Source of the DNA: Hydrococcus rivularis NIES-593
GTDB lineage: Bacteria; Cyanobacteriota; Cyanobacteriia; Cyanobacteriales; Microcystaceae
NCBI RefSeq assembly: GCF_001904635.1
Contig: NZ_MRCB01000002.1
Span: forward strand, 1-64,000
Reading direction: 5' to 3'
Length of the DNA: 64,000 nucleotides
The stretch's first letter is position 1, and each line of letters starts with the position of its first letter. The position numbers and the translations under genes were made by a program. The notes below the pieces were generated by a model. That model was given only the letters and a program-made list of their open reading frames with translations, was not told where the DNA came from and made no database searches. Below are positions 23,247 to 32,581 of the stretch, piece by piece.

Positions 23247-23972
23247 TTATCTAGCCAGTAAAGCTCGCCAGAAAAACTCAGGCAAAGCTAGCATGCGCTT
23301 CCAACGCCAGGGTTCTTGATAGAGTCGATAGAGCCACTCTAAATTATTTTCCCGCAACAAAACGGGCGCTCTTTCTTTGGTTCCAGACCAGATATCAAAA
23401 CTCCCGCCTACGCCAATCCAAATGGCTTCGGGACAAAGAGAGCGGTTTTGGCGAATCCAAAATTCCTGACGCGGAACCCCCAATCCGACCAAAATGAGTT
23501 TTGGTTGGGTTACCTTGAGCGTTTCTTTCCAATTGTCTTCTTCTGCTGGCGAGAGATAGCCGTGATTGCTAATAATTGAGATTCCGGGCACTTTCTGCCG
23601 CCAAGTTTGGGCTGCTTTCTGCACAATTTCGGGTTTACCGCCATAGAAGGCAATGGGATAGGATTTGCCCAATCGTCCGACTTGTCGGAGTAACGACTCT
23701 GCTAGTTCGATTCCCGGACAGCGTTGCTGCCGCTGCCCTCGCAGGCGCAGATAGAGAACGATTCCAGCCCCATCGGGAATGACGAGATCGGCTTCTCGAA
23801 TGATGCTGGCTACGTCGGGATTTTTTTCTGCAAGAATCGCCATTTCTGCGTTTAGCGTTACTACGTGAGTTCCTACTTTCTGGTGTAAGCGTTGTAGGAG
23901 CCAACTCGTATAGTCATTGAAGAGATGGACGGGCAACTTTAAGACAGAAAAGGTTTTAGGAGTCTTTAACAT
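23247..23972 (-). CDS. WecG/TagA/CpsF-family glycosyltransferase
   Basis: The 241-residue GT26-family enzyme carries TLNAEMAILAEKNP, VIPDGAGIVLYLRL (the DG of the active site), PGIELAESLL, the PIAFYGG turn and VGLGVPRQEFWI. FDIWSGTKERAP and PWRWKRM follow near the end. Family members transfer N-acetylhexosamines to lipid-linked intermediates in wall teichoic acid, enterobacterial common antigen or capsule synthesis. In cyanobacteria they probably serve extracellular polysaccharide assembly. A distant paralogue sits at 31826-32581. No polysaccharide genes adjoin this copy. Confidence 0.85.
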   Translation of the reverse strand: MLKTPKTFSVLKLPVHLFNDYTSWLLQRLHQKVGTHVVTLNAEMAILAEKNPDVASIIREADLVIPDGAGIVLYLRLRGQRQQRCPGIELAESLLRQVGRLGKSYPIAFYGGKPEIVQKAAQTWRQKVPGISIISNHGYLSPAEEDNWKETLKVTQPKLILVGLGVPRQEFWIRQNRSLCPEAIWIGVGGSFDIWSGTKERAPVLLRENNLEWLYRLYQEPWRWKRMLALPEFFWRALLAR

Positions 23973-24701: not shown

Positions 24702-25391
24702 ATGGCGAATCCTTGGAACAATAACTTAGATGATTTCGATTGTCAAATCGGCAAACTTATTCAAGAAGCCCGTAGCTATCCAAGAGGCAGTTTAGAACGA
24801 AATAAAAGACTGAATCAAATCGTTAGCCTGATGCAAAAATCGGGAAAAATTATGAAAAGTTATGGAAATATTAATTTTCATGACTATCAAGAAGCACTTC
24901 AGAAAAGCTGGAAGTATTTCTGTGGCAACTTATGCGAAGCCACTACAGCAAAAGAAGCTTATAATCCAGATAAAGGAAGTGTATTTACCTGGTTTAATAG
25001 TTATCTCAAATTTGCCATCATAGAGATTCTGAAAAAAAATCAGCAAGAATACGACAATCGAATTTCCCCAGTCATTTCTCCAGAAACAGGAGAAATCATA
25101 TATCCTTGGGAAAATTTAGCAGCCCCTTCAGAAAACTCTCATTCTTTGCTAAAAGAAATTAAAGAATGGCTAGAAGAAAATAGAGAGCGATTAAGCCAAA
25201 TTCATGTAGACAAGCACCCCGACATTAATTGTTATGTTTTAATCCTCCGTCGCTTGCCTCCAGAAACAGCTTGGAAAATTCTTGCCAATGAATTTGGAGT
25301 TTCTATTCCTACCTTAAGTAGCTTTTATCAGCGCAAATGTTTGCCCAAACTCCAAGACTTTGGCAAAAGTCATTTTGCTGAAATTTTTTGA
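24702..25391 (+). CDS. ECF-like sigma-70 factor
   Basis: The 229-residue protein has a sigma-70 region 2-like segment at about residues 60-115 (DYQEALQKSWKYFC, then GSVFTWFNSYLKFAIIEIL). A C-terminal helix-turn-helix region fits region 4 (ETAWKILANEFGVSIPTLSSFYQRKCLPKL). This pattern is typical of a cyanobacterial ECF-like group. It overlaps the long form of the next gene by four bases and lies 30 bases before that gene's ATG, so it is co-transcribed with DUF1822 and the CHAT gene. A 6-bp inverted repeat (CGAATA/TATTCG, 24645-24670) upstream could be an operator. No anti-sigma factor is evident; a neighbour may play that role. Confidence 0.75.
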   Translation: MANPWNNNLDDFDCQIGKLIQEARSYPRGSLERNKRLNQIVSLMQKSGKIMKSYGNINFHDYQEALQKSWKYFCGNLCEATTAKEAYNPDKGSVFTWFNSYLKFAIIEILKKNQQEYDNRISPVISPETGEIIYPWENLAAPSENSHSLLKEIKEWLEENRERLSQIHVDKHPDINCYVLILRRLPPETAWKILANEFGVSIPTLSSFYQRKCLPKLQDFGKSHFAEIF

Positions 25392-25420
25392 ATCGATCGC
25401 ACTTTAACTCCAGGCAAAAA

Positions 25421-26551
25421 ATGATTGAATCAATCCTCTCTCAACCCCTGACAATTCCTCTGACTCAAGGCGATAGTAAGCTCGCCATTAAATTTGCTCA
25501 ACAGCAACCGACAAAAGAAAAACAAAAGCAAGTTTATTTCAATACCTTAGCCGTACTGGCAGTCAATCGCTACTTAGAAATGCTAGGGATTTCAACCGAT
25601 CTCCAATCCAGCTACAGTTGGAATCCAATTACTCGCCTGTGTGCTGATGTAGCCGACTTAAAAGTAACAGATTTAAAACTCAAAAAATTAGGACATTTAG
25701 AATGTCGCCCCGTTCGAGCAGGTCAAGAATTTGCTTGGATTCCACCGGATGTCTGGGACGAACGAATCGGCTATATTTTTGTTCGATTAGATATAGAATG
25801 CTATCAAGGAACTCTATTAGGATTTCTCCCCACAGTCTCGAAAGAAAAAATTCCAATTTCTTGTCTGCAATCTCTTGACGACTTCCTTGAATTTTTGTAT
25901 AAACCTACCCTTAATTTTGTCTGTTTAAGTGACTGGTTTGATAATATATTTGCAACTGGTTGGGAGGCAATTGAAGAAGTTATCGTCAACAATCAACAAG
26001 CCAATCCTGCCCTAGCCTTTCGCCTTGGCAGAGTTCGTTTTGACAAAATGGAATGGTTGCGACAACAAATTAAACAGTTGTTTCCAACAGGAAAGCCATC
26101 CTCACCAATCCTTCCCCCTCCCGATCGAGATCCGATTCCTGCTCTAGTTCAAATCCTACAAGCAACTCAGGATGAGGAAACGCGCTGGAAAGCAGCCGAA
26201 ATGCTGTGGGAGATCGAGCCAACCCATCCAGCAGCAGGAGTAAGACGAATTATCGATCTGGGAATGCAATTAGGAGGTCATCGAGTTGCCTTGATGGTAG
26301 CTCTTTTAGAAAAGCCCGACCAAAAAGTAGCCGTCCTCCTGCGAGTTTACCCAATGGGAAATCGGGATACTTTACCTCCTCTTTTGCAACTGAGTGTCTA
26401 TGAATCGGACAATCCTGTTGCTCAAGTACAAGCCAGATCTCAGCCTTTAGATAACTATATTCAGCTAAAGTTAATTGCAGAAAATGGAGAAAAATTTAGT
26501 GTCAAGGTAGCGTTAGAGGAGACGAGTTTTATAGAATATTTTATCATTTAA
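25421..26551 (+). CDS. DUF1822 family protein
   Basis: This 376-residue soluble protein belongs to a family known only as DUF1822 in cyanobacteria. The N-terminal block shows the family pattern: LTIPLTQGDSKLAIKFA, VYFNTLAVLAVNRYLEMLGI, then WNPITRLCADVADL. The middle has FAWIPPDVWDERIGYIFV and a LLGFLPTV segment. The C-terminal region (RVALMVALLEKPDQKVAVLLRVYP) is beta-rich. Function unknown. I chose the ATG at 25421, where family-like sequence begins; an upstream TTG adds 11 residues. In my recollection, members recur next to ECF-like sigma and CHAT genes. Confidence 0.78.
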   Translation: MIESILSQPLTIPLTQGDSKLAIKFAQQQPTKEKQKQVYFNTLAVLAVNRYLEMLGISTDLQSSYSWNPITRLCADVADLKVTDLKLKKLGHLECRPVRAGQEFAWIPPDVWDERIGYIFVRLDIECYQGTLLGFLPTVSKEKIPISCLQSLDDFLEFLYKPTLNFVCLSDWFDNIFATGWEAIEEVIVNNQQANPALAFRLGRVRFDKMEWLRQQIKQLFPTGKPSSPILPPPDRDPIPALVQILQATQDEETRWKAAEMLWEIEPTHPAAGVRRIIDLGMQLGGHRVALMVALLEKPDQKVAVLLRVYPMGNRDTLPPLLQLSVYESDNPVAQVQARSQPLDNYIQLKLIAENGEKFSVKVALEETSFIEYFII

Positions 26552-26569
26552 AAAATAAGGACGATCGCT

Positions 26570-27070
26570 ATGGGTAAGCTAGTTGTCCTCCAAATTGGCG
26601 ATGGCAATTTGGAGCAGGGATTTCCTGTCATTGTGCAAATTGGCGAAGAGGGAAAACAGAGCGATCGCAACTTTCATGGAAAACTCCCGCGTCATCCCGA
26701 ACTTCTCCAGTGCTATCGGGACTGGCAAGATGCCTATTACAACACTCCCACAATTCGCAATGCAGGGATTCGTCATCCTCGCCTTGAGATCCCCCCACAG
26801 ATAACTAACCATAGCGAGCAAGATTTTAAAAAAGCGGCGCAAATCATTGAAAACGAGATGAAAGCGTGGCTAGATACCCCAGAAATTCGGGAATTGCGAG
26901 ATTGCGTGCTAGATGCAATTAGACCAGAAGAGACGGCACGGATTATTATAGCAACCCAAAATCGGGATCTCTGGAAGCTACCTTGGCACTTGTGGGATTT
27001 ATTTAAGCGTCGTCCCAACAGCGAACCTACCTTCAGTACGGCTAGTTATGCGAACCCCAACCTTTCCTGA
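26570..27070 (+). CDS. N-terminal half of a split CHAT-protein gene
   Basis: The 166-residue ORF reads MGKLVVLQIGDGNLEQGFPV, a beta-sandwich-like start that usually precedes CHAT domains in cyanobacterial proteins (recollection). Its later part WKLPWHLWDLFKRRPNSEP is the linker normally followed by a segment ending in a (K/R)ILVIFG strand. That strand is found at the start of the next ORF (KILVIFGNS). Both ORFs are in the same frame, with a 105-bp interruption. I infer that this was one gene. It could still be expressed as a separate subunit. Eighteen bases separate it from DUF1822. Confidence 0.7.
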   Translation: MGKLVVLQIGDGNLEQGFPVIVQIGEEGKQSDRNFHGKLPRHPELLQCYRDWQDAYYNTPTIRNAGIRHPRLEIPPQITNHSEQDFKKAAQIIENEMKAWLDTPEIRELRDCVLDAIRPEETARIIIATQNRDLWKLPWHLWDLFKRRPNSEPTFSTASYANPNLS

Positions 27071-27106
27071 CCGAGCAATTTTAGATTTTAAATTAAAGAA
27101 GAAAGC

Positions 27107-27176
27107 TAAAATCTAAAATCGAGTAACTTCAGGCTCTTGTTAATCCAAAATCGTAAATCCAAAATCTAAAATCGAG
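27107..27176. repeat. Direct repeat in the gene-splitting insert
   Basis: The sequence AAAATCTAAAATCGAGT occurs at about 27108-27124 and again at about 27160-27176, followed by AAC and GAC. Related AAATCC/AAAATC units fill the space between. This TTTAGATTTTGGATT-type tract resembles the flank of the hairpin element at 54296-54320. It fills the gap that breaks the CHAT gene. Confidence 0.7.
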
Positions 27177-29167
27177 TGACGATCGTCTCCTTAGCCTTCA
27201 AAAAGCCAGTCAAAATAGCCTTGAGAAACCCAGTCAAAATCTTAGTGATTTTTGGCAACAGTGAAAATATCGATTTAAAACCAGATGAGGAGTTACTTGC
27301 TAAGTTAGAAAAACGAGGAGCAAGAATTACTCCCCTCACTCAACCCACCCGTAGAGAACTTAGGTATAGATTATCGGAGCAACGGTGGGATCTGCTCTTT
27401 TTTGCGGGGCATAGTTATTCGGAGAAAGAGGGAGAGAGTGGATTTATTCAGCTAAAAGAAGACGATAGTATCTCCCTAAAAGAGTTAGAGAGCGACTTGA
27501 GCCAAGCCGTTAGAAATGGCTTAAAACTGGCGATTTTTAACTCCTGTGACGGTTTAGAAATAGCCCGGAATCTAGCAAATTTTCGGATTCCTTATGTCAT
27601 TTTTATGCGAGAACCCGTCCCCGATCGCGTAGCACAGCGATTTTTAGAATATTTTCTCTTTCGCTTTTCTAGTGGGGAATCTCTCGATCTATCCGTGCGC
27701 TATGCCAGACAACGCTTGCAAGATGAAGAAAGGGAACACCAATTACCTTGTGCGAGTTGGCTGCCTGCCATCTATCAAAATCCAACCGCACCTACTTTAA
27801 AGTGGCTTCCCCCCACTCCTAGAATCGCAGTAGGAGTAGCGATCGCATTTCTTGTCAGCATAATTCCTCTAAGTCTAATAATCTACAAAAGAATCCATCC
27901 TTCTATCCCCCATCGCATCAGTATGGGAGAGGAAATTTTAGTCAAGGAGAATGTCACATCCGAGAAGAAAAAAGGCGTAAAAGCTTTTGAGGAAAAAGAT
28001 TTTGCCCGTGCTGCCTCCGAGTTTCAAGCATCCCTTCAAAAACAGCGCAACGATCCAGAAACGCTGATTTACCTCAACAATGCTCGAAATGGCGACAAAA
28101 GCAGCTACAAAATTATTGTCAGCGTTCCCATCGGTAGCAACCTCGACGTAGCGCAAGAGATTTTGCGAGGCGTGGCGCAAGCGCAAAACGAGATCGATCG
28201 CAAGGGAGGGATTAACGGGAAACCTTTACAAGTAGCGATCGCCAATGATGAAAATAACCCCGACCTTGCTATACAACTTGCTAACACCTTTATAGAAGAC
28301 CCTCAAACCTTAGCCGTTGTCGGACATAATTCCAGCGATGCCTCAGTTGCTGCCGCTCCGGTTTATAATCGGGGCGGTCTAGTCATGATTACCCCTACTA
28401 GCTTTTCTGACAAGTTATCCTCTAGCGGAGATTATATCTTCCGCATGGTTCCTACCATCCGCTTTTTAACCGATACCTTGTCCGATTACATTGTCCACAC
28501 CGCCCACAAAACTAAAATTGCCGTTTGTTCGTCTAGAGCTGCGGTTGATAATGAATCGTTTCGCAATCAATTTATTAACAGCTTCCAAGCAGAAGGCAAA
28601 CAGTATATTAATGTTAAATGCGATTTTGACGATCCCCAATACAATCCTGAAGAAAAAATCTTAGAAATCGTCAGTAGTGGTGCCGATAGCCTCCTGTTAG
28701 CCCCTCACGTCGATAGAATCGGCAAAGCAGTAGAGATGGCACAAGCCAATCAAGGACGCTTAACCCTTTTTGGCAGTCCCACTCTCTATACCTACAAAAC
28801 TTTAAAAGAAGGTCAGCAAGCCGTCAACGGCATAGCTTTAGTTGCTCCTTGGCATCCCGATACACTGCCTTATAACGCTCCTTTCCGCAAGCAAGCGCGA
28901 CAATTGTGGGGCGGAGAGGTGAATTGGCGCAGTGCGCAAGCTTACGACGCGACAATGGCAATTACTGCCGCCTTGCAACAAAGTCAAACCCGTGAAGGAC
29001 TGAAAAACACTCTCACAGACAGAACTTTTTCGGTTGAGGGAGTCACGGGAACAATTAAGTTTTTGCCATCGGGCGATCGCCAATTTATCCCAGGAAGTGG
29101 TTTAATTGCAAAGGTTAAACCAAATCCTAAAACTTCAGGCTACAAATTTGTTCTTCTACCTCGTTGA
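27176..29167 (+). CDS. CHAT peptidase fused to membrane helix and LivK-type binding domain
   Basis: Residues 20-200 form a CHAT (caspase-like) domain with both catalytic residues: His79 in LLFFAGHS and Cys124 in AIFNSCDG. One hydrophobic helix follows (about 217-237). A short helical stretch (KGVKAFEEKDFARAASEFQASL, TPR-like, about 265-295) comes next. Residues 307-663 form a type I periplasmic binding domain of the branched-chain amino-acid receptor kind (IIVSVPIGSNLDVAQEILRG, LAVVGHNSSDASVAAAPVY, GLVMITPTSF, AYDATMAITAAL). The design suggests ligand sensing outside and proteolysis inside. The GTG start falls in the repeat; the true N-terminus is probably the preceding ORF. Convergent with pabB. 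Confidence 0.8.
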   Translation: MTIVSLAFKKPVKIALRNPVKILVIFGNSENIDLKPDEELLAKLEKRGARITPLTQPTRRELRYRLSEQRWDLLFFAGHSYSEKEGESGFIQLKEDDSISLKELESDLSQAVRNGLKLAIFNSCDGLEIARNLANFRIPYVIFMREPVPDRVAQRFLEYFLFRFSSGESLDLSVRYARQRLQDEEREHQLPCASWLPAIYQNPTAPTLKWLPPTPRIAVGVAIAFLVSIIPLSLIIYKRIHPSIPHRISMGEEILVKENVTSEKKKGVKAFEEKDFARAASEFQASLQKQRNDPETLIYLNNARNGDKSSYKIIVSVPIGSNLDVAQEILRGVAQAQNEIDRKGGINGKPLQVAIANDENNPDLAIQLANTFIEDPQTLAVVGHNSSDASVAAAPVYNRGGLVMITPTSFSDKLSSSGDYIFRMVPTIRFLTDTLSDYIVHTAHKTKIAVCSSRAAVDNESFRNQFINSFQAEGKQYINVKCDFDDPQYNPEEKILEIVSSGADSLLLAPHVDRIGKAVEMAQANQGRLTLFGSPTLYTYKTLKEGQQAVNGIALVAPWHPDTLPYNAPFRKQARQLWGGEVNWRSAQAYDATMAITAALQQSQTREGLKNTLTDRTFSVEGVTGTIKFLPSGDRQFIPGSGLIAKVKPNPKTSGYKFVLLPR

Positions 29168-31825: not shown

Positions 31826-32581
31826 ATGAGTAAAGTTAATATTCTCAATATTTTTCTTGACAATATCTCAATGACCGAACTTCTTAAAAAACTTAGTCTA
31901 GAAGGAGGTATAGTCTTTACTCCCAATGTAGACCACCTGATGAAACTACAAATCGACCGAGAATTTTATGAGGCTTATAATCAAGCTGATTATCGAGTAT
32001 GTGACGGTCAAATTTTGAAGTGGTCTTTAGATTTTTTAGGAACCCCTATCCAAGAAAAAATTTCTGGTTCCGATCTTTTGCCTGCTTTTTATTTTTACAA
32101 TAAACAAAATCAAAATATCAAAATTTTTTTACTGGGCGGAGCTGAAGGAGTGGCTCAAAAAGCCCAAGAAAAAATCAATCAAAAAGTTGGCAGAGAAATT
32201 GTAGTTGCCGCTCATTCTCCGTCTTTTTGCTTTGGAAAAAATGAAGAAGAATGTCTTGAGATAGTCAATGCGATCGCTCGCTCTGAAGCAACAGTTTTGG
32301 TTGTAGGAGTCGGGGCACCAAAGCAAGAAAAATGGATTATTAAATATAAAAATCAGCTCGACAAAATTAAAATATTTTTAGCAGTTGGTGCGGCAATTGA
32401 TTTTGAAGCAGGTTACAAAAAAAGAGCGCCAAAGTGGATGAGTGAGGTAGGACTAGAAACTCCTTATAGATTATTCAGCGAACCTAAGAGACTTTGGAAA
32501 AGATATTTAGTAGAAGATCCTCCCTTTTTAGGTTTAGTTCTCAGACAAAAATTAAACCTTTATAAAAATCCTTTTACTTAG
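31826..32581 (+). CDS. WecG/TagA/CpsF-family glycosyltransferase
   Basis: The 251-residue GT26-type enzyme has the full set: FTPNVDHLMKLQID, YRVCDGQILKWSLDFLG, KISGSDLLPAFY, the FLLGGAEGVAQKA turn, VGVGAPKQEKWI, and FEAGYKKRAPKWM with the WKRYLV ending. It probably transfers a hexosamine-type sugar to a lipid-linked acceptor on the cytoplasmic side of the membrane. It is the first gene of a four-gene run with a deacetylase, a radical SAM enzyme and a methyltransferase, which suggests synthesis and decoration of a surface glycan. AT-rich codon use fits its neighbours. Confidence 0.88.
   Translation: MSKVNILNIFLDNISMTELLKKLSLEGGIVFTPNVDHLMKLQIDREFYEAYNQADYRVCDGQILKWSLDFLGTPIQEKISGSDLLPAFYFYNKQNQNIKIFLLGGAEGVAQKAQEKINQKVGREIVVAAHSPSFCFGKNEEECLEIVNAIARSEATVLVVGVGAPKQEKWIIKYKNQLDKIKIFLAVGAAIDFEAGYKKRAPKWMSEVGLETPYRLFSEPKRLWKRYLVEDPPFLGLVLRQKLNLYKNPFT

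Follow-up and report, generated by a model that had tools for sequence, protein, structure and literature searches.

The first 64,000 nucleotides of contig NZ_MRCB01000002.1 of the cyanobacterium Hydrococcus rivularis NIES-593, hereafter the window, contain an operon (24702–29167) in which a putative sigma factor, a DUF1822 protein and a caspase-like CHAT protein are encoded side by side, and the question raised by this locus is how these products may act together. The four adjacent same-strand open reading frames (ORFs) described in the original prediction are all present on the forward strand. They encode a predicted sigma-70/extracytoplasmic function (ECF)-like factor of a short type (229 aa, 24702–25391), a DUF1822 protein (387 aa, 25388–26551), an EACC2-like protein, ORF3 (166 aa, 26570–27070), and ORF4 (663 aa, 27176–29167), which begins with GTG and carries the CHAT domain followed by a LivK-type periplasmic binding domain. 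The start of the DUF1822 gene overlaps the stop of the sigma gene, and a gap of 18 nt separates DUF1822 from ORF3.

The answer proposed here, which has in our judgement about an even chance of being correct, is that the operon encodes a caspase-gated relay composed of a sigma factor, an anti-sigma factor (DUF1822) and a CHAT protease with a LivK-type input. The sigma factor would be held inactive by DUF1822. A ligand of the LivK-type domain, which presumably sits outside the cytoplasmic membrane, would make the membrane-anchored CHAT protease change its state, and EACC2, a separate polypeptide here, may serve as the regulatory partner of this protease. The active protease would then cut DUF1822, and the freed sigma factor would transcribe its own regulon. 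The inhibition of the sigma factor, the cleavage of DUF1822, the ligand, the topology, the role of EACC2 and the regulon are all elements that we infer.

The relay is favoured because the sigma gene lies directly upstream of DUF1822 in 53 of 60 loci, while an EACC2-CHAT gene lies directly downstream in only 30, and because sigma and DUF1822 are the tightest co-varying pair. These DUF1822-centred loci, from 42 genomes, were sampled from a phylum-wide list by taking alternate rows among its first 123 and omitting two that belong to the window's own genome. Both neighbours are present in 25 of them and neither in 2. Matches to the sigma profile number 57 among 665 ORFs, 53 directly upstream of DUF1822 and 4 elsewhere. 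A second, CHAT-centred set of 79 loci was obtained by a CHAT search of genome contigs, covering the best 80 of at least 557 relatives, and has a same-strand DUF1822 gene within 900 bp upstream in 51 loci; a sigma gene precedes DUF1822 in 33 of these 51 (27 short-type, 6 long-type). The neighbourhood counts are far from chance, and the order sigma–DUF1822–CHAT, whose conservation in cyanobacterial genomes had been put forward as a check on the locus, does recur.

Co-variation was analysed with protein distance matrices of 46 operons that contain a short-type sigma factor, DUF1822 and CHAT. The correlations, which are also raised by the shared descent of whole operons, are 0.74 for sigma–DUF1822, 0.65 for DUF1822–CHAT and 0.56 for sigma–CHAT in the first run, with partial correlations of 0.59, 0.42 and 0.17 respectively. 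In the second run, for which the alignments were gap-trimmed and the distances corrected, the values are 0.63, 0.43 and 0.37, with partial correlations (bootstrap ranges) of 0.56 (0.42–0.65), 0.27 (0.11–0.58) and 0.15 (0.01–0.27). The ranking of the pairs in the second run is unchanged under equal-length subsampling, and sigma–DUF1822 exceeds sigma–CHAT in every bootstrap. DUF1822 goes first with the sigma factor and second with CHAT, and this order of correlations places it between the sigma factor and the protease, as expected for an inhibitor that is cut by a protease.

Several results weigh against the relay. Loci that come from a single genome or clade are not independent of one another. 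In 28 of the 60 DUF1822-centred loci the sigma gene is present and EACC2-CHAT is missing, which makes the protease an optional part, and 5 of the 60 have CHAT and no sigma gene. Among the CHAT-centred loci, DUF1822 is missing from its place in 28 of 79 and the upstream sequence is too short in 7 of 79, and no sigma gene was found before DUF1822 in 18 of 51, 2 of which are at a contig end and 16 of which have room upstream. The DUF1822–CHAT correlation exceeds that of sigma–CHAT in only 79% of bootstraps. DUF1822 resembles no known anti-sigma family in Pfam, where the rows up to an E value of 1 are DUF1822, HEAT_2 and PX only, and gave no match to PDB sequences up to an E value of 5. No Csx30 is found among the 25 listed of 36 NCBIfam families for 45 DUF1822 proteins, a collection that may hold no Csx30 model.

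The association data would fit any partner of a sigma factor, and DUF1822 could instead assist the sigma factor as a positive cofactor or scaffold, or tether it to the membrane complex, with CHAT acting on another target. The Ig-like C-terminal sandwich and helical hairpin of DUF1822, described below, are common in binding proteins and suit such a role. In both tested systems of like composition, however, the middle protein (Csx30 or CalpT) is both inhibitor and substrate, and a cofactor or scaffold is considered rather unlikely. DUF1822 had been suggested at the outset as a regulator or substrate; the regulator is the better half of that guess because DUF1822 goes with the sigma factor even where CHAT is missing, and the substrate is the half that we infer.

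Some loci depart from the common order in recognisable ways. By eye, the sigma–DUF1822 pair is followed by a TPR-CHAT-like protein (TPR, tetratricopeptide repeat) in two loci (L191 7346–9970 and L196 7401–9986, reverse complement) and by a caspase-STAND-like protein in a third (L200 7156–10956, reverse complement), and most other DUF1822 loci without EACC2-CHAT have no recognisable protease. A clade with DUF1822 proteins of 320–334 aa (L205, L207, L208 and the CHAT-centred L113, L122 and L140) has EACC2-CHAT downstream and no sigma gene upstream; these six loci encode a TPR-type protein of approximately 900 aa, identified by eye, upstream of DUF1822 instead.

The relay is further backed by the invariant catalytic dyad of CHAT, by omega values of 0.17–0.21 and by two experimental precedents. 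In type III-E CRISPR, the CHAT protein Csx29 has been found by experiment to cut Csx30, relieving a sigma factor (PMC10028731). As in the window, a third protein stands between a CHAT protease and an ECF-like sigma factor; the input there is the RNA-guided Cas7-11, whereas the window has a presumably membrane-anchored sensor. The window sigma factor also has no match at an E value of 1 or below to the type III-E sigma model NF041236, and no match of DUF1822 to Csx30 was seen. In the second precedent, also experimental, CalpL cuts CalpT, which holds CalpS (PMC11417357). This relay likewise joins a protease, an anti-sigma factor and an ECF sigma factor, but its protease is a Lon protease with a SAVED domain activated by cyclic tetra-adenylate (cA4), with no CHAT. 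The favoured comparison is that the window system may work like Craspase with Csx30 or like CalpL/CalpT/CalpS while being a member of neither.

Two further systems are related more loosely. The Anabaena CHAT protein HetF, which has one transmembrane segment, appears to keep in check PatU3, which inhibits the regulator HetZ (PMC12288457, PMC8406250). Its setting differs, being that of cell division and heterocysts, and ORF4 scores far below the cut-off of the HetF model NF045509 (33 bits against 1200). Proteolytic control has been proposed for the ECF sigma factors of the ECF54 group, in whose neighbourhoods CHAT is one of the protease domains, but this control is proposed to operate without an anti-sigma factor (PMC8999054).

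This kind of arrangement is already in the literature, as a computational prediction of 2021 (Kaur et al. 2021, PMC8195603); there, EACC2 is joined to a caspase, the C-termini vary and include domains that bind small molecules, and genes for an ECF sigma factor and DUF1822 lie nearby. The window shares the caspase-like domain after an alpha+beta domain, the variable C-terminus and the two partner genes: it encodes a CHAT domain with an intact dyad, an EACC2 homologue, and adjoining sigma and DUF1822 genes, the sigma call being weak on its own. It differs in that EACC2 and the caspase, one polypeptide in the published system, have an ORF each in the window and its congener G311, and the window is therefore a variant rather than a plain member of this kind. 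The section of PMC8195603 on this system makes no mention of a separate EACC2 gene or of a sigma–DUF1822 pair without a protease, and the term anti-sigma is absent from the main text of the article as available. What is new here is the sigma–DUF1822 association (53 of 60 against 30 of 60 loci, and the tightest pair in 46 operons). A literature search of limited coverage found no experimental work on the sigma–DUF1822–EACC2-CHAT operon.

Kaur et al. interpret the EACC2-caspase as a sensor that belongs to an immunity or cell-death system and becomes active through autoproteolysis on a stimulus, with the sigma factor adding a transcriptional output. This is the published account of the same type of system (PMC8195603), and the other protease-like proteins after sigma–DUF1822 in L191, L196 and L200, recognised by eye, would agree with it. 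It leaves DUF1822 a mere neighbour, though this protein is tied closest to the sigma factor, and because EACC2 is a separate gene in the window strain, the switch there cannot consist of a cut that parts EACC2 from CHAT. Autoproteolytic activation is held to be decidedly unlikely for this locus, and the relay through DUF1822 remains the preferred reading.

The first gene product was predicted to be an ECF-like sigma factor, an identification that stands through its relatives and is weak for the protein by itself. It matches TIGR02937 over residues 80–207 with an E value of 0.0055, below the cut-off of the model, and has no Pfam match. Among 29 aligned short-type relatives, 11 match TIGR02937 at an E value of 0.01 or lower, and the top two rows of a search of the PDB with the profile of these relatives are the ECF sigma factors SigK (E 0.012) and RpoE (E 0.032). 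A sigma-70/ECF-like factor is suggested by these relatives, the call being weak when the protein is taken alone.

Two other kinds of sigma-related protein precede DUF1822. A long-type sigma factor is encoded directly upstream of DUF1822, with no CHAT, on contig 56 of the window's own genome, G000 (L005 2175–4616) and matches TIGR02937 with an E value of 1.5e-28, over the cut-off; in many genomes such a pair of long-type sigma and DUF1822 without CHAT tops the list of DUF1822 matches. On contig 27 of the same genome, a second operon (L006 2593–7828) encodes a 472-aa protein related to the long-type sigma, DUF1822, an EACC2-CHAT-CHASE2 protein and a further ORF. Profile comparison aligns the short and long types in region 4 at most (E 0.004, probability 8.6%) and gives nothing useful for the short and contig-27 types; the long type is homologous to the contig-27 type (E 1.4e-35), and the contig-27 protein itself has no sigma-model match. 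The counted sigma genes thus fall into two sets, united through the matches of each to sigma models and not through mutual similarity. The type III-E sigma model is matched, in each case below its cut-off, by the short-type relative L148 (6.3e-6, its best row) and by the contig-56 sigma factor (3.6e-6), for which five other sigma models score better.

The second gene product is a DUF1822 protein, as had been predicted (PF08852, E 7.2e-79), and is the proposed anti-sigma factor and putative protease substrate of the relay. Its structural model (predicted local distance difference test, pLDDT, 87.7; predicted template modelling score, pTM, 0.64), which is good per domain and uncertain in the packing of the domains, has an alpha/beta N-terminal part, a helical hairpin and a C-terminal beta-sandwich. 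Foldseek analysis of this model against the PDB gave no match at an E value of 0.001 or better. VIA-align identified common immunoglobulin (Ig)-like sandwiches over about residues 285–387 (Z up to 7.9), and one row of an Hjc resolvase over residues 48–168 (Z 8.6) is not used as support. DUF1822 is called a TPR protein by Kaur et al. (PMC8195603), which is not borne out by the present model; this assignment was rejected, as the model lacks a TPR solenoid and only a weak HEAT_2 match (E 0.016) is found.

Matches to the DUF1822 family occur in 188 of the 292 genomes that sample the phylum, and in 177 of them a match exceeds the cut-off. In family f31, the matches examined (5 of 5 genomes) cover only the N-terminal part of DUF1822, in ORFs of 525–1117 aa (L245–L249). 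A 646-aa protein on contig 23 of G000 (L007 2798–4738) contains a P-loop, identified by eye, and its C-terminal part matches DUF1822 positions 178–370.

ORF4 begins with the CHAT domain (residues 43–195, 27302–27760), whose identity was predicted correctly (PF12770, E 2.9e-14). The predicted dyad is intact, with His79 (27410–27412) and Cys124 (27545–27547) invariant in all 80 aligned CHAT domains, the window included. A profile of CHAT alone, searched against PDB sequences, finds the CHAT protein 8tl0 at an E value of 0.75 with the His and Cys in register. The domain could be a pseudo-enzyme that serves as a signal-binding scaffold only, and the literature covered, itself available in part, reports proteolysis for no EACC2-CHAT protein. 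A conserved dyad in 80 of 80 domains and the lowest omega of the parts tested (0.109 for the CHAT part, residues 1–212) speak for an enzyme, and the pseudo-enzyme is given hardly any credence.

The continuation of CHAT through one helix into a LivK-type domain, also claimed at first reading, is borne out. The ORF4 model (pLDDT 88.3, pTM 0.66), again good per domain and uncertain in domain packing, contains a single helix between CHAT and the binding domain (residues 218–240, 27827–27895), which coincides with the hydrophobic maximum and is presumed to be a membrane anchor. The charge around this helix is divided, with more Lys and Arg on the N-terminal side in 10 of 23 cases and on the C-terminal side in 9 of 23, many of the N-terminal stretches being shorter than 15 residues. 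TPR-like helices follow in the model at about residues 257–305 (27944–28090), where sequence comparison gives only TPR_19 at an E value of 0.056. The C-terminal domain (residues 325–637, 28148–29086) is of the LivK type, as it combines a Peripla_BP_6 match (PF13458, E 6.9e-35) with the fold of a binding protein. The best Foldseek row (E 7.2e-20, target TM-score 0.85) is an amino-acid binding protein with leucine; all 50 rows listed are binding proteins, a result that concerns the LivK part and not the CHAT fold. The fusion recurs, since Peripla_BP_6 forms the C-terminus of 23 of the 80 CHAT proteins, the window included, compared with CHASE2 in 44 and other domains in fewer. With the LivK form, a caspase-like enzyme of bacteria would have a defined, testable type of input, an amino acid or amide.

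ORF3, which was left unnamed in the original prediction, belongs to no Pfam family and is homologous to the first approximately 165 aa of the fused EACC2-CHAT proteins (profile E 2e-54). It is taken, by this homology, to be the EACC2 part detached from the protease protein, a name that follows its position and the description in PMC8195603 and not a model of that paper. EACC2 and CHAT form one ORF in all 79 CHAT-search loci and two in the window. The congener G311, with 94.9–97.2% DNA identity to the window in aligned blocks, has the same two-gene form, and the GTG start of ORF4 in the window aligns with an ATG in G311. ORF3 and ORF4 share a frame in the window, and both are open in the window strain and in G311.

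The spacing between the matched blocks of ORF3 and ORF4 is 105 nt in the window and 5 nt in G311. The spacer (27071–27175, forward strand) holds a dispersed AT-rich repeat of about 35 nt, of the TCCAAAATC/TAAAATC type, which has no counterpart in G311 and was not mentioned in the original prediction. It has 40 other matches in the genome at an E value of 1 or below, 38 of them inside query positions 65–126. The possibility that ORF3 and ORF4 are one ORF broken by the repeat was dropped because G311 has the two-gene form without the repeat.

Purifying selection acts on all four genes. Omega between the window and G311 is 0.170 for the sigma gene, 0.176 for DUF1822, 0.171 for ORF3 and 0.214 for CHAT-LivK, compared with 0.205 for a flanking gene, and binomial tests against neutrality give p values from 7.6e-5 (ORF3) to 1e-11 (ORF4). 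The transmembrane and linker part of ORF4 has an omega of 0.705, on ten changes. A decaying copy, with EACC2 detached, a repeat before the CHAT start and the protease made little or not at all, would agree with the fusion in 79 of 79 close loci and with the 105 nt that the repeat puts between the genes, before a GTG start that has no evident ribosome-binding site; the repeat may also be recent and harmful, to which omega is blind. G311, however, is split without the repeat with both ORFs open, the omega of ORF3 and ORF4 departs from neutrality, and the same split, with a CHAT-LivK-like ORF, is present in G303 (L182). Since G311 is also split and all four genes are under purifying selection, the split is not attributed to decay, which is considered very unlikely, and the EACC2 domain appears to be kept as a separate subunit.

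A further, more distant split is found in G087 (L242; EACC2 7e-15, CHAT 4e-36). Four loci of G312 (L170–L173) were rejected as splits and not counted, as they are junction frameshifts in a fragmented assembly.

A wider proposal, put forward tentatively and somewhat more likely to be wrong than right, is that cyanobacteria possess widespread CRISPR-independent, caspase-gated sigma switches, in which a sigma/DUF1822 core would stand alone or be docked to a CHAT protein with an exchanged sensor (CHASE2, LivK-type or others). The window form would be a transmembrane, receptor-controlled caspase that frees a sigma factor on binding an amino acid or similar ligand, with the EACC2 regulator as a separate subunit. 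If this is true, Craspase and CalpL/CalpT/CalpS would be CRISPR-linked cases of a broader protease–anti-sigma–sigma circuit, and DUF1822, with matches in 188 of the 292 sampled genomes, would gain a function.

A scan for promoters and terminators was uninformative: it yielded 14 promoters where 9.0 were expected and 6 terminators where 5.3 were. The region is flanked by two ORFs on opposite strands (23247–23972, reverse; 31826–32581, forward) that by eye resemble WecG/TagA-like glycosyltransferases.

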